A DNA stretch of 36,554 nucleotides, from NCBI GenBank assembly GCA_029061025.1, contig JAIDSW010000221.1, forward strand, positions 1 to 36,554, read 5' to 3'. This DNA is from Duncaniella sp. (lineage in GTDB: Bacteria > Bacteroidota > Bacteroidia > Bacteroidales > Muribaculaceae). This document shows, piece after piece, positions 3,574-15,040 of the stretch. The notes under the pieces are model-generated. The model was given only the letters and a program-made list of their open reading frames with translations. It was not told the origin of the DNA and did no database searches. How positions within the stretch are numbered: position 1 is the stretch's first letter; each line of letters begins with the position of its first letter. Made by a program: the position numbers and the translations under genes.

Positions 3574-3677
3574 AAAAAAGGGTAAGCGATCTACATCGCA
3601 CCGCTACAACCCGATACCGTTGCTTCGATCAAGACCTGGCGGAGTTCTCGGGGAGCTGGTCGTGTAGGACTTACCCG
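3574..3677 (-). ncRNA. ffs: Signal recognition particle RNA (small bacterial SRP / 4.5S type)
   Basis: Minus strand: GGGTAAG...CGCCAGGTCTTGATCGAAGCAACGG...CTTACCC TTTTTT; domain IV CCAGG...GAAGCA..GG motif, closing 7-bp terminal stem (3580-3586/3670-3676) and U tract. Confidence 0.88.
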
Positions 3678-3680
3678 ACT

Positions 3681-3713
3681 GCAAAAGTACAACATTTTTT
3701 CTAATCCGCCAAA
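3681..3713 (-). promoter_or_regulatory. Bacteroidetes-type promoter of the SRP RNA
   Basis: Minus strand TTTG (3713-3710), 20-bp spacer, TACTTTTGC (3689-3681), matching TTTG-N19-21-TAnnTTTGC. Confidence 0.75.
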
Positions 3714-10373: not shown

Positions 10374-10404
10374 TTGTACCCGAGCCAAATTTTCGTACAT
10401 TTGC
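10374..10404 (+). promoter_or_regulatory. Promoter upstream of the RAYT gene
   Basis: TTG (10374-10376), 19-bp spacer, TACATTTGC (10396-10404). Confidence 0.6.
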
Positions 10405-10470
10405 GCCGCAAGCGGCTCTGCACTTACAAAAGCCCCGCAAAGCTTGTCAGCGCAAAAGCCGCTTGCGGCG
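10404..10470. repeat. REP-like inverted pair of GC-rich hairpins upstream of the RAYT gene
   Basis: CGCCGCAAGCGGCT (10404-10417) and perfect reverse complement AGCCGCTTGCGGCG (10457-10470); each arm is itself a short hairpin (GCCGC-AA-GCGGC). Confidence 0.75.
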
Positions 10471-10496
10471 TAGTAACCATTAAATTAAAAAGCCCT

Positions 10497-11387
10497 ATGG
10501 GTCGAGATCCCAAGCACGATTATCGAGGTCGTTCCATCTATCATATAACTATAGGAAAAGCTCCCCATTGCCCGAGCTTTTGCCAAATTTCAGGCACACC
10601 CGATCAACCAGTCATCAATAAATCGGCTGTCGGCTCGATCATAGAGCGACAAATACTCAACTTCCCCAATCTTTGTCCCGCCCTTCAGATCCTCCAATAT
10701 GCTATTATGCCCGATCATATCCATTTCGCCATCTTTGCCCGTGAATATCTGCCGAGGGCACTCGGAAGTTATATAGGTATGATGAAAGTCAAGACCGGAC
10801 AAATAATAAGAGAAGCCTACCCGCAGATATCCGATATTTTTACTCCCGATTTCCACGACCGATACCTGCTCCCCCGTCACAAACTGGATCATATCATCAC
10901 ATATATCCGTGAAAATCCTAAAAGACTGCTCGAGAGAATACTGAATCCCGATTTCTTTCAGCGACTCAATAATATCAATCTCAACGGCTCCCTTTGGCAA
11001 GCCTACGGAAATCTCCAGCTGCTGCAAAACCCCTTCAAAGCACCTGTAGTGATCCATCGTGCCGATACGGAATCTGTCGCAGACTACAAGACCCGCCGCT
11101 GGCGACATCTCTCTGAAAACGGAGGAGTATTGGTCTCGCCATTCATATCTCCCGCAGAAAAGGAAGTGCGCCGGCAATGTGAAGATGTCAATGGAAAAGT
11201 AATCCTGATTACCAATAAGCCTCTTGCCGAACGAGAAAAACCGGCGGCCCACGATTTCAATCAATGTGCCAAAGGTCAATTATTGATCCTTGCGCCCCAC
11301 ACGCCCCTCCCGCCGGGCCGAAAAACCTTCCTCCACCTCAATTCCACAGCAGAATCAATCGCTCTGTCATTAATATCACTTTGTTGA
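10497..11387 (+). mobile_element. Y1 HUH transposase of REP-associated (RAYT) type with C-terminal extension
   Basis: YHITIGK..., AIMPDHIHFAIF (HUH), HIITYIRENPKRLL (Tyr region); extra ~100 aa GGVLVSPFISPAEKEVRRQC...KVILI...KPAAHDFNQCAKGQLLILAP. Confidence 0.85.
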
Positions 11388-11431: not shown

Positions 11432-11475
11432 AAAAAATCGAGAGGTCAAACATTACAGAGCCGTTGACCTCTCGA
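11432..11475 (-). terminator. Intrinsic terminator of the caspase operon
   Basis: Perfect 12-bp stem TCGAGAGGTCAA (11438-11449) / TTGACCTCTCGA (11464-11475) followed on the minus strand by TTTTTTAATC. Confidence 0.85.
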
Positions 11476-11511
11476 GTGTGGATTATTATAGTATGGATTA
11501 CAAATGGTATG

Positions 11512-12939
11512 TCATCTCAGTGTCTGGGTGCTCCAAGTTTTGTTGGTTGAAGATACCTGTGTTGTAGGAACTTGCGATTTGTCTTTTTCAATTACGGAGG
11601 TTCGTTTGACATTGTCGATGATATAATCACTCAGTTCTCCGAGAGTTGCATCTCCGTTGGACTCCTGAAGTTTTTTAAGCAGGAAATATGTCATCATTCC
11701 ATGTTCTTTCGAATCATAGGCATAGGCAGTCTGGTCGCCCTGAGCGGCTGCAAAAACTACAAGATTGCCGATTGGAGTTTCAGCCTTTATATTACGTTTA
11801 GCACCTCTTGCAGCCACAAGCATTTCGCCGTTTTTCTGAGAACCGCTGAAACAAGCGTCAATAAATAGGACGAGAGATTTAGCATCTAATTTGCCTAAGC
11901 TGGAATATACGTCACTTAATTTTATTGCAGTGGACGGATCTGTAGGATACCCATCGACGGGGAGAATGTAACCTTCGGTAGTTTTTTCATCATTAATACC
12001 ATGACCGGAATAATGTACAATAATCTTAGCTTTGCTTCCGGCTGTTTCGGCAAGCTCTTGCAAGCGGTTTAATGATCGTTTGATTTTAGACAATGTTCCA
12101 TCCTTTATTTGAATAATCTGATGTTCGGGAACACCAATAGCCATTCGGAGATATTGCTTGAATACATCTCCATCATTTAAGGCAAATGGTACTTTGTCAG
12201 CATCGTCGTAATTTTCATTTGAAATTATTAAAGCAAAAGTATTCTCAGCTACTTTTTTACTGTTGGGAATATTAATATCTACGTCGCTGACCATCTGGCG
12301 AGACTGTTGCATCAAGTCAGAATCAGAGGCTCTCTTGGTCGCAGCAAGATCTTGTGCCGGCTTGGTGTCGAATTGAGCCATAACAAGATCGTTTGTAGGT
12401 ATTTGTAATGCAGGTGAAAGAGAGGGATCTACACTGAAATCATAAATTTCAGCCGGTGCACCTGATTCCATGCGGAATATCGCATACTCTCCTTTAGTAA
12501 GAGTCTCTGCAGGCCATACTTTATATACTTCGTCTGAAATTTTCTCTGTTCTAAGAGGGAGATCGTCAATTTTGGTAGTCGTGCCTGAATATGCTCCTGT
12601 GGAAGCAAAAGCAAATTCGCGAGTATTCTTTTTGCCTTTTTTAAGTTGCACGAGTTTCCATGACCTGATAGGTATTTGCTTGGGAGTGTGGATGTAAAAG
12701 TAATTTGCTCCCAATGGCAGAATCAGTTCAGCGAATTTACCGTCAAGGACTACACTCGTTTTTAGTTTTGCACCATAGGCGGCTAAAAATGCTTTGCCGC
12801 TGACTTTTGTGCCTACAGTCGTCGCTCTGGTTACAGGTTCCAACTGGGAGTGAGAGTTAAGCACGTACACATCTTGTGCCGACGCATAGGCCGCACATAA
12901 TAACAGTGCGGATAAAATGCAATAAAGTCGAAGTTTCAT
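11512..12939 (-). CDS. Exported caspase-family (peptidase C14) protein
   Basis: Signal peptide MKLRLYCILSALLLCAAYASAQ; FALIISNENYDDADKVPFALNDGDVF; KIIVHYSGHGIND (catalytic His); LVLFIDACFSGS (catalytic Cys). Confidence 0.92.
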   Translation of the reverse strand: MKLRLYCILSALLLCAAYASAQDVYVLNSHSQLEPVTRATTVGTKVSGKAFLAAYGAKLKTSVVLDGKFAELILPLGANYFYIHTPKQIPIRSWKLVQLKKGKKNTREFAFASTGAYSGTTTKIDDLPLRTEKISDEVYKVWPAETLTKGEYAIFRMESGAPAEIYDFSVDPSLSPALQIPTNDLVMAQFDTKPAQDLAATKRASDSDLMQQSRQMVSDVDINIPNSKKVAENTFALIISNENYDDADKVPFALNDGDVFKQYLRMAIGVPEHQIIQIKDGTLSKIKRSLNRLQELAETAGSKAKIIVHYSGHGINDEKTTEGYILPVDGYPTDPSTAIKLSDVYSSLGKLDAKSLVLFIDACFSGSQKNGEMLVAARGAKRNIKAETPIGNLVVFAAAQGDQTAYAYDSKEHGMMTYFLLKKLQESNGDATLGELSDYIIDNVKRTSVIEKDKSQVPTTQVSSTNKTWSTQTLR

Positions 12940-13805
12940 TTACTTGAAATTTTAATAGGAATTTTATTCAATGTAATGTCGTTGTGTTTAGCTTGAAGTT
13001 TTGCAAGCCACTTGTTGAATTCTTTAACAGATGTTTCTTTTATGGCCGTAAGGTCTTCTTTTACATTTAGAGAGACTTTATTAAATTTCTCGGGAGAAAA
13101 AATTATAACTACGTCATTGAATTCTACTTGTCTGTCGCATGTTAACGAATACTCATCAACCAAATCGGGATTTTGTGAAGCCTTATCTTTTGAGAAGAAG
13201 AAATATTCCTTATCGGCATCAACCTTAAATGTTCCATCTTTGCTTTCGCGATAAGGCAATAGGCAGAGAGCTGTATCATCATCATGACAGATCAGAAATA
13301 CATTAAGGTAACCTCCGGCAGGCGATTTGAAATATAAATACATTTCATCTCCATCTGTGAATTCGTTGGAGGCATATCTCTTATTCGGGGAATTTTTTAA
13401 TATTGTAGCTTCGAAATCAGTTCTCAAACCAATTATCTCTTGTACATATCCTTCTACTGTACAGGTAATGACAGGAATACGATCTTCAAAATCATATTCG
13501 AAGACAGGATCGCAAGTGTTTTCCACCCACTCCCCTTTTAAGGAGCTGTTGGAATAAGAAGAATAAAAATCTTCGTCAGATTGGGTGGAAACTATACTTG
13601 AAGCTGTTTCAGAAACATTCATGCCGAGAGCGTCATTTACGGCTTTGAGTTGAGCGCGCAAAAGAGCTATTCTTTCAGCCTCAGCCGGTGTCTCATTCCT
13701 GTTGGCTTTATATGTATATGTCGCCTTAGCCCATACTCGCTTTTGCGCATAAACATTTAAGCTGAATAGGGAAATTACAAATATTAAAAGTGAAACTCGA
13801 ATCAT
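12936..13805 (-). CDS. Exported DUF4384-like protein
   Basis: Signal peptide MIRVSLLIFVISLFSLNVYAQ; DEMYLYFKSPAGGYLNVFLICHDDDTALCLLPY (DUF4384-like); 4-bp overlap with caspase gene. Confidence 0.75.
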   Translation of the reverse strand: MIRVSLLIFVISLFSLNVYAQKRVWAKATYTYKANRNETPAEAERIALLRAQLKAVNDALGMNVSETASSIVSTQSDEDFYSSYSNSSLKGEWVENTCDPVFEYDFEDRIPVITCTVEGYVQEIIGLRTDFEATILKNSPNKRYASNEFTDGDEMYLYFKSPAGGYLNVFLICHDDDTALCLLPYRESKDGTFKVDADKEYFFFSKDKASQNPDLVDEYSLTCDRQVEFNDVVIIFSPEKFNKVSLNVKEDLTAIKETSVKEFNKWLAKLQAKHNDITLNKIPIKISSK

Positions 13806-14488
13806 TTAGATTTGTTCTGCTCAAGTTTACCAGACAATTTCTTGTATAATTCTTCGTTTTTGTTTTTTACACCCGATAGCCATGCTTCCGTTGCCTCTTC
13901 TTTTAATGTTGAGATTTTTAAAGCCATGGATACCTCTACTTGATATTTCCCATTATCAGTATCTCTGTACCATTCCGTAATAACAATAGTTCTTTTTAAT
14001 TTTTGTTGCACAAAGGATGTGTTTACCTCATTCATTTCATTAACATCCCTGACCTCTTCATCACTTAATTCTTTGTGATTAATAGAGCCCTCAATTATTG
14101 CTCCCATCTCTGTTTCGAGAGATTTTGCAATAGCAAGACGAGCCTGCTGTTTCGCTGCAGCTTGGGCAGATGAAAGGGTGTTGCCTACGGCAGTACCTGA
14201 CTGAACGATATATTCCAATTCCCCGTCCTCGTTAGGCTCTTCATATTGCCATGCGCGATCCAATTGAGCTTCGATAGATTTTCCTGCACCGATAGGTCTC
14301 CATCCTTTTTTTGTCAGCTCTTTAGCTCGTTTACGAGCGCTTTTGCTGGCTTTTGTATCAAACTCTTTTCGATACTCGGCATTGATTTCTTTTCTGGTTT
14401 TCTTCGTTTTCTCAGCTGCTGATGTCGACACTGTCGTCAAACCGGCGAAAAACACTGCACACAACAAGAAATAGATAAATTTTTTCAT
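13802..14488 (-). CDS. Exported hypothetical protein, weakly LPP20-like
   Basis: Signal peptide MKKFIYFLLCAVFFAGLTTVSTSA; VQSGTAVGNTLSSAQAAAKQQARLAIAKSLETEMGA pattern; 4-bp overlap with next gene. Confidence 0.6.
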   Translation of the reverse strand: MKKFIYFLLCAVFFAGLTTVSTSAAEKTKKTRKEINAEYRKEFDTKASKSARKRAKELTKKGWRPIGAGKSIEAQLDRAWQYEEPNEDGELEYIVQSGTAVGNTLSSAQAAAKQQARLAIAKSLETEMGAIIEGSINHKELSDEEVRDVNEMNEVNTSFVQQKLKRTIVITEWYRDTDNGKYQVEVSMALKISTLKEEATEAWLSGVKNKNEELYKKLSGKLEQNKSK

Positions 14489-14502
14489 AGCTGAACTGTG
14501 AA

Positions 14503-14536
14503 TAAAAGTAATTGTTGGAAGACTCACAGTCCAACA
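14503..14536 (-). promoter_or_regulatory. Possible promoter and operator of the caspase operon
   Basis: Minus TTG-N21-TACTTTTA (near TAnnTTTG); TGTTGGA (14513-14519) / TCCAACA (14530-14536) inverted repeat. Confidence 0.4.
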
Positions 14537-14541
14537 TTATA

Positions 14542-14640
14542 CAAAAAAAGCGTGAGAGTCTGTATCAGTCACTCGTCCCACGAATCGAGGCTCTGGCATG
14601 TGCCCTTCTGAGTAGAACGAGCAACGCGGAGCCTCACGCT
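14542..14640 (-). ncRNA. Unidentified ~92-nt structured RNA with intrinsic terminator
   Basis: Minus strand AGCGTGAG (14640-14633) ... CTCACGCT (14556-14549) immediately followed by TTTTTTT; internal CTCGT/ACGAG and GGC/GCC pairings. Confidence 0.5.
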
Positions 14641-15040
14641 GTATGATATAATTATATAAAAGAGTATGTATCGCTACATTCTCAATTAAATAAAGGTATA
14701 CCATACCCGTAGACGCCTATCATTGCTACATTCCTGACTCAGAGATTCAAAACTGCCAGATTTCGATCCGTCAAGAATCAGCGCGGATAAACGCTTTATA
14801 ATTATGTCTTTGCCAAAGCTATAAGCCACGGCGATAACTTTGCACCCGCCCCATCAACCCACATCAGGGCTCCGCAAGCGATATGCACCGGCAAATTTAA
14901 TAGAAATATAAATATCCTGCAATACCCTTTCACCATATTTTTCTTGGATTTTTGTGATGATAGGGTATTGCTCGGCCGGACGCTCTAGAGTGAGCGCCTC
15001 TATCGGATTGAATATCAAAGTAATAAAACAACGGAGGGAA

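Follow-up and report, generated by a model that had tools for sequence, protein, structure and literature searches.

A multicopy structured leader RNA of Bacteroidales, a putative transcription attenuator, precedes an operon for a predicted exported caspase-type protease

Introduction

What stands at the head of an operon that encodes a caspase-type protease with a signal peptide, and does it belong to that operon alone? The question is raised by contig JAIDSW010000221.1 of Duncaniella sp. (assembly GCA_029061025.1, a genome that is 87% complete), of which a stretch of 36,554 nucleotides (nt) was analysed as a whole and is called the window below. On its reverse strand lie three overlapping genes, the last of them a C14 caspase, and upstream of them a structured RNA (Table 1). 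An earlier reading of the letters (the original prediction) had taken this arrangement for a self-contained cassette with its own promoter region. Here we describe the RNA as a leader of about 350 nt that recurs before many operons of the order, and we argue that it is probably an uncatalogued, multicopy, cis-regulatory transcription attenuator (riboswitch-like) of Bacteroidales, controlling a surface and envelope regulon to which the caspase operon would belong.

To our knowledge, few structured cis-regulatory RNAs have been catalogued in Bacteroidales. In the transcriptome of Bacteroides thetaiotaomicron, 13.5% of the mRNAs have long 5' untranslated regions and about 2% of those carry a predicted riboswitch (PMC7366714). 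Our literature search found no paper describing either the leader element or the gene trio behind it.

Results

Structure of the leader

Folded as a single sequence, the segment 14530-14640 is modestly better than shuffles (z -1.9), and it is the comparison of copies that extends the element to about 350 nt. The structured RNA of the original prediction turned out to be real. Two domains were defined by aligning 14 copies. Domain A precedes domain B in 156 out of 161 copies, with a spacing of 11-93 nt, and a variable hairpin is found between them. For domain B (81 distinct sequences) 98.4% of the cells are paired and 82 cells show double changes, as opposed to 12.7 +/- 3.7 in shuffles, figures that call for two cautions: fitting the alignment to the model favours pairing, and kinship of the sequences alone can beat shuffles. 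Fitting and kinship are unlikely to explain the whole effect, since pairing fell below 50% in the controls in which the partners were slid by one column, and since the sequences are spread over many genera. Double-change pairs are seen in domain A as well, in the consensus-fold alignment. The bridging helix that closes the variable hairpin was spotted in some of the sequences before it was tested over all of them; its cognate duplexes have an energy of -9.13 kcal/mol, compared to -7.23 +/- 0.20 kcal/mol with permuted partners (0 out of 300 permutations). At the 3' end the copies have a median of 9 T in the last 12 nt (145 copies). A pseudoknot between AGGCUC in the 5' strand of domain B and GAGCCU in the hairpin loop was also considered; it is pairable in nearly every copy, and it was set aside as the permutation test was not significant (68 out of 500).

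Table 1. Features of the leader and of the operon behind it (window coordinates)
Feature	Position	Strand	Basis
Leader RNA, ~350 nt	14540-14888	(-)	homologous in 160+ copies; 5' end predicted from the -7 box, 3' end from the U-tract
Promoter -7 box TAAATTTG, Bacteroidales sigma-ABfr type TAnnTTTG	14892-14899	(-)	sequence
Domain A: helix GCGUUUAUCC/GAUAGGCGU around hairpin UUCUUGAC/GUCAGGAA	14699-14796	(-)	alignment, consensus fold, model R2 92.4 bits
Bridging helix, 14695-14708 with 14641-14650, closing the variable hairpin between domains A and B	14641-14708	(-)	duplex energy
Domain B: long hairpin GUUGCUCGUUC/GGGACGAGUGAC within closing helix AGCGUGAG/CUCACGCU	14543-14645	(-)	covariation
Candidate pseudoknot in domain B, AGGCUC/GAGCCU	14629-14634 / 14588-14593	(-)	covariation not significant
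Intrinsic-terminator-like end before gene 1: closing-helix 3' strand 14549-14556 (partner 14633-14640) and U-tract 14543-14549	14543-14556	(-)	sequence, fold
Gene 1, predicted exported LPP20/FlgT-like protein, 228 amino acids	13802-14488	(-)	open reading frame and alignment of 10 homologues
Gene 2, predicted exported protein, 289 amino acids, FlgT/LPP20-like N-terminal region and DUF4384-like C-terminal domain	12936-13805	(-)	sub-threshold DUF4384 match, alignment
Gene 3, predicted exported C14 caspase-type protease, 475 amino acids, His313/Cys363	11512-12939	(-)	Pfam C14, AlphaFold (AF2) model, dyad conservation
Operon terminator hairpin followed by T6	11432-11475	(-)	fold z -5.5, 0/200 shuffles equally stable

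Copies and distribution

A BLAST search of the genome of origin with positions 14528-14660 found eight copies on eight contigs, and a covariance model found at least 12 full copies. Those that BLAST detects share 71-85% identity with the window copy. The operons behind the copies all differ: one encodes a second caspase (contig 128), others are CsgG/LPP20-like (contigs 76, 289 and 317), and contig 78 has a radical-SAM operon, to name only some. The cassette of the original prediction is therefore not self-contained; it shares its promoter and upstream RNA with unrelated operons, and the caspase operon thus belongs to a regulon.

In a sample of 119 genomes of the source family, model R1 matched 109, with up to 18 copies each. 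Across the order, 24 of the 118 genomes sampled were matched too, with E-values that are marginal in the weakest cases. In a class-wide sample of 149 genomes the matches at E <= 1e-4 were confined to the genome of origin and one other genome of the same order (G098), with none outside the order, a result that doubles as a specificity control. The copies used for these and the following statistics were taken from the best-scoring matches, i.e. the counts describe strong members, and some statistics come from incomplete assemblies. Beyond the family, the leader was found in Bacteroides, Prevotella, Paraprevotella and Phocaeicola. An exact 23-mer is present in at least 119 stretches of named genomes, among its hosts being Bacteroides acidifaciens DSM 15896, Paraprevotella xylaniphila YIT 11841, Hallella mizrahii, Xylanibacter rodentium, Phocaeicola oris and Prevotella denticola; in the copy of P. 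denticola domain B is degenerate (40.5 bits). Two copies are on plasmids of Phocaeicola dorei and P. vulgatus (L348 and L349, ~95 and 93 kb), 66 nt before a hypothetical gene, and NVEALA and 6-bladed beta-propeller genes are found nearby. The element also occurs in records labelled as Pseudoflavonifractor, Clostridiales and Clostridium metagenome-assembled genomes (L232, L257 and L263), which are probably mislabelled or contaminated bins. A phage origin was considered and rejected, as a search of 50,697 phage records gave no match; the 23-mer occurs in a single viral contig.

No Rfam family matched the full element at gathering or permissive thresholds (4227 families, up to E 2, two copies at the permissive setting), and the promoter-proximal stretch of the window gave only a chance match to a plant microRNA. 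A microbiome survey lists unnamed Bacteroidetes candidates, one of them being HMP2_1881, which is 108 bp long and lies close to radical SAM genes (PMC8040213). These might be fragments of the leader.

Position, promoter and downstream genes

Where a gene follows within 600 nt, it is co-directional with the leader in 143 out of 147 distinct copies (97%), as opposed to 57% for the upstream neighbours, and the gap between hairpin and start codon has a median of 65 nt (5-95% range 16-345 nt). In 79% of 145 distinct copies a TAnnTTTG motif precedes domain A by 30-110 nt, 5% being expected from shuffles, and its distance to domain A is nearly fixed (median 65 nt). Between U-tract and start codon the motif was found in 0 of 95 gaps; about 3 would be expected by chance, so that this absence is weak in itself, and it is the contrast to the upstream side that carries weight. 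As the promoter motif is upstream of the RNA and not in the gap, the genes are most simply read by passing the terminator. A scan for sigma-70 promoters and terminators was uninformative in this phylum. Two marks of a cis-regulatory leader are thus present, namely compensatory changes and a consistent position and orientation upstream of genes.

Signal-peptide-like N-termini, called by a crude heuristic, occur in 58% of the first genes behind the leader compared to a background of 30% (p 5e-7). The downstream families are of surface and envelope types (LRR_5/BspA, Big_2, BACON, PEGA, CsgG, LPP20 and C14), while the upstream neighbours are housekeeping genes. A minority of the targets is cytoplasmic, among them Hsp70, kinases, a DndCD pair and a restriction-modification pair of the HaeIII type. 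The DndC/DndD pair and the restriction-modification pair (L286 and L265) indicate that some defence operons also stand behind the leader. A defence regulon was considered as well and rejected, since PADLOC finds few matches downstream, with no visible excess compared to the upstream neighbours. A NusG domain is found in 2 out of 88 downstream proteins. In Bacteroidaceae bacterium IMSAGC_004 (L277) the leader lies 243 nt upstream of a UpxY/NusG-like gene that is followed by a glycosyltransferase-like gene, which suggests a capsule locus.

The three-gene module

The operon behind the window copy agrees with the original prediction in its main points. The three genes overlap by 4 bp at both junctions, and by inspection all three products begin with Sec-type signal peptides (cleavage regions STSAAEK, NVYAQK and AYASAQD), from which they are predicted to be exported. 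The start of gene 1 is the ATG at 14488; the GTG at 14527, with which the listed open reading frame begins, is not the true start. The strong terminator foreseen behind gene 3 is equally clear (Table 1). Of the family labels that had been proposed, the caspase stands firmly, as residues 235-466 match Pfam C14 (PF00656) with E 4.4e-25, above the gathering score. DUF4384 (PF14326) is matched by gene 2 below threshold (E 9.6e-4, 19.6 bits, gathering score 27), and gene 1 has no match in Pfam, including LPP20 (PF02169), so that "LPP20-like" denotes a resemblance only. Both families do occur behind other copies of the leader, LPP20 as Pfam matches and DUF4384 with E-values down to 2.8e-8. The AF2 model of gene 2 (predicted local distance difference test, pLDDT, 79.9) found no clear match in the PDB with Foldseek.

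The model of gene 3 (pLDDT 78.5) shows the caspase domain and an all-beta N-terminal domain (residues ~22-171). A sequence search of the PDB with the caspase gave no match; the best Foldseek matches of the model in the PDB are MALT1 paracaspases (top E 7.7e-13). The catalytic dyad foreseen in the motifs HYSGHG and DACFSG is present, and both residues are intact in 60 out of 60 C14 homologues. The N-terminal domain also exists without a caspase: behind one group of leader copies (L225-L227) it is found in exported proteins of ~305 amino acids that are followed by PEGA-domain genes. At these loci a C-terminal 'RWYFDSDPRGARIFYRVISN' region is common to the caspase-free protein and its PEGA-domain neighbour. 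The original prediction had also set the protease apart from the caspase effectors of defence systems, and this contrast is borne out in as much as PADLOC returned a generic caspase model for gene 3, nothing for genes 1 and 2 and no named defence system. Envelope stress and protein processing, which it had offered as possible roles, are putative.

Is the trio a functional unit, as had been proposed? In the family sample, a same-strand C14 gene lies no more than 3 kb away at 42 of the 45 loci with a gene-2 homologue, and the remaining three are found where a contig ends or on a short one; a detectable gene-1 homologue lies within 1 kb at 23 of these loci. Conversely, gene 2 is within 3 kb at 43 of the 76 C14 loci, meaning that C14 genes occur without gene 2 too. 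Neither homologues without partners in most genomes nor a broken His/Cys pair, the two outcomes named beforehand as speaking against the unit, were found, and gene order argues that the trio is a real conserved module. In related genomes the same leader heads the trio though the proteins are only ~25-59% identical. Where enough upstream sequence is available the leader is present at 10 out of 12 trio loci, including one in another family, and absent from two (L080 and L084). In the genome of origin a second C14 gene is found on contig 128, and both caspase loci carry the leader. Another homologue of gene 2, next to an LPP20-like gene, is on contig 146 of the same genome (3.1 kb; L076).

Two further features of the window lie apart from these subjects. 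A Y1/IS200-like transposase reading frame (10374-11387, (+)) is directly behind the operon terminator, with a Pfam Y1_Tnp match below cut-off (E 5.8e-4). The sole Rfam match in the window is the small signal recognition particle RNA of Bacteroidales (3576-3683, (-)).

Discussion

The element, its structure and copies, their position, the promoter motif, the gene associations and the trio can be read directly from the compared sequences, and they fit best, in our opinion, with a transcription attenuator. Transcription would start at the sigma-ABfr promoter upstream of the leader, and the nascent RNA of ~350 nt would fold into domain A, the bridging hairpin and domain B. The closing helix of domain B and the U-tract would act as an intrinsic terminator: with the helix formed, transcription would stop ~50-75 nt before the first start codon, while a putative signal (a small molecule, a protein or another factor) would block the helix, and read-through would then express the operon. 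The same leader would control mostly exported surface and envelope operons, the LPP20/DUF4384/caspase trio being one recurrent member. Start, conditional termination and signal are thus predicted steps, and several points weigh against this reading. The start site, termination and read-through are predictions from the sequence. No alternative antiterminator structure emerged, and the covariation of the candidate competing pseudoknot is not significant. The functions of the downstream genes are too diverse to name a ligand, ~21% of the copies have no perfect TAnnTTTG, and the gap to the start codon varies over the wide range given above. We speculate further, and here we would sooner expect to be wrong than right, that this large riboswitch-like class may sense a probably global signal, e.g. 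a nucleotide second messenger or an envelope or host cue, and may switch surface and envelope operons genome-wide, including the exported paracaspase module.

Other mechanisms could produce a leader of this kind. Antitermination by proteins has precedents in UpxY at capsule leaders and in the EAR and put elements, and the RNA could accordingly be where a NusG paralogue (UpxY-like) or a different processive antiterminator is loaded or recognises its target, instead of a switch that senses a ligand. The copy upstream of a UpxY-type gene in IMSAGC_004 would suit such a role, but most members of the regulon have no NusG-like gene nearby, and structural conservation is strongest in the terminator itself rather than in an upstream antiterminator element, so that we consider this explanation rather unlikely. 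A somewhat smaller chance is given to a stand-alone, trans-acting small RNA family resembling FopS, with the genes read by leakage or from an unrecognised promoter. The promoter motif and the intrinsic terminator agree with it, and multicopy small RNA families do exist in Bacteroides (PMC11697453). However, a free-standing small RNA needs neither the 97% co-direction nor a gene start at a median of 65 nt downstream, and the gaps lack the promoter motif; FopS itself is a short single-stranded 5' stretch with a terminator and is in Rfam (PMC11697453), whereas the leader has no match there. The two roles are compatible, as a leader whose transcription has terminated is itself a free RNA.

The diverse, accessory cargo and the related copies on two Phocaeicola plasmids could also be expected of a structured recombination or integration site (attC-like) marking mobile gene cassettes. 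We hold this to be very improbable: the copies are dispersed singly, nearly always as an ordered two-domain RNA and mostly with the promoter motif, their orientation to the downstream gene is fixed, the phage records gave no match, and among the gene families listed for the neighbours of the leader no integrase was conspicuous. Least credible of all is leader-peptide attenuation, in which a short reading frame in the leader would couple translation to termination. A frame of at least 10 codons beginning with ATG is found in 141 out of 144 copies, but the frames from conserved ATG positions differ widely in length (5-95%: 1-82 codons), sequence and stop position, and the conserved ATGs sit within conserved helices; a leader peptide was rejected as these frames are not conserved.

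A leader RNA with up to 18 copies per genome, found in isolates of Bacteroides, Prevotella and Paraprevotella and in uncultured Muribaculaceae, would mark out an unnoticed regulon in which surface proteins are joined by an exported caspase-type protease, and its signal, once found, would give a handle on surface switching by gut Bacteroidales.

It remains to compare the locus with known systems. With riboswitches and attenuators that end in an intrinsic terminator, the leader shares the promoter, a long structured RNA, a terminator-like hairpin with a U-tract near the start codon and co-directional genes. It differs from known riboswitches in having no Rfam match, an unusually large size, many copies per genome and functionally diverse surface and accessory targets. 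The FopS/GibS small RNA family of Bacteroides is likewise a multicopy Bacteroidales RNA with a sigma-ABfr promoter, a terminator and surface functions; however, FopS consists of an unstructured seed and a terminator and acts in trans on mRNAs of polysaccharide utilisation loci (PMC11697453), while the leader is a two-domain RNA fixed in cis, and neither Rfam nor the published description of FopS places it in that family. The UpxY-controlled leaders of capsule loci resemble it as long leaders of Bacteroidales surface operons, and one copy of the leader does precede a UpxY-like gene, but most of its targets are non-capsule loci that have no such gene. As for the protease, the caspase fold and the His-Cys dyad are those of the MALT1 paracaspases and the prokaryotic orthocaspases. 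The window protease differs from both in its signal peptide, in an all-beta N-terminal domain common to exported proteins that are not proteases, and in its two exported partner genes. In our reading, the products of the trio would be a paracaspase-like protease of the periplasm or envelope and two exported partners; the role and activity of the protease and any interaction of the three proteins are predictions.

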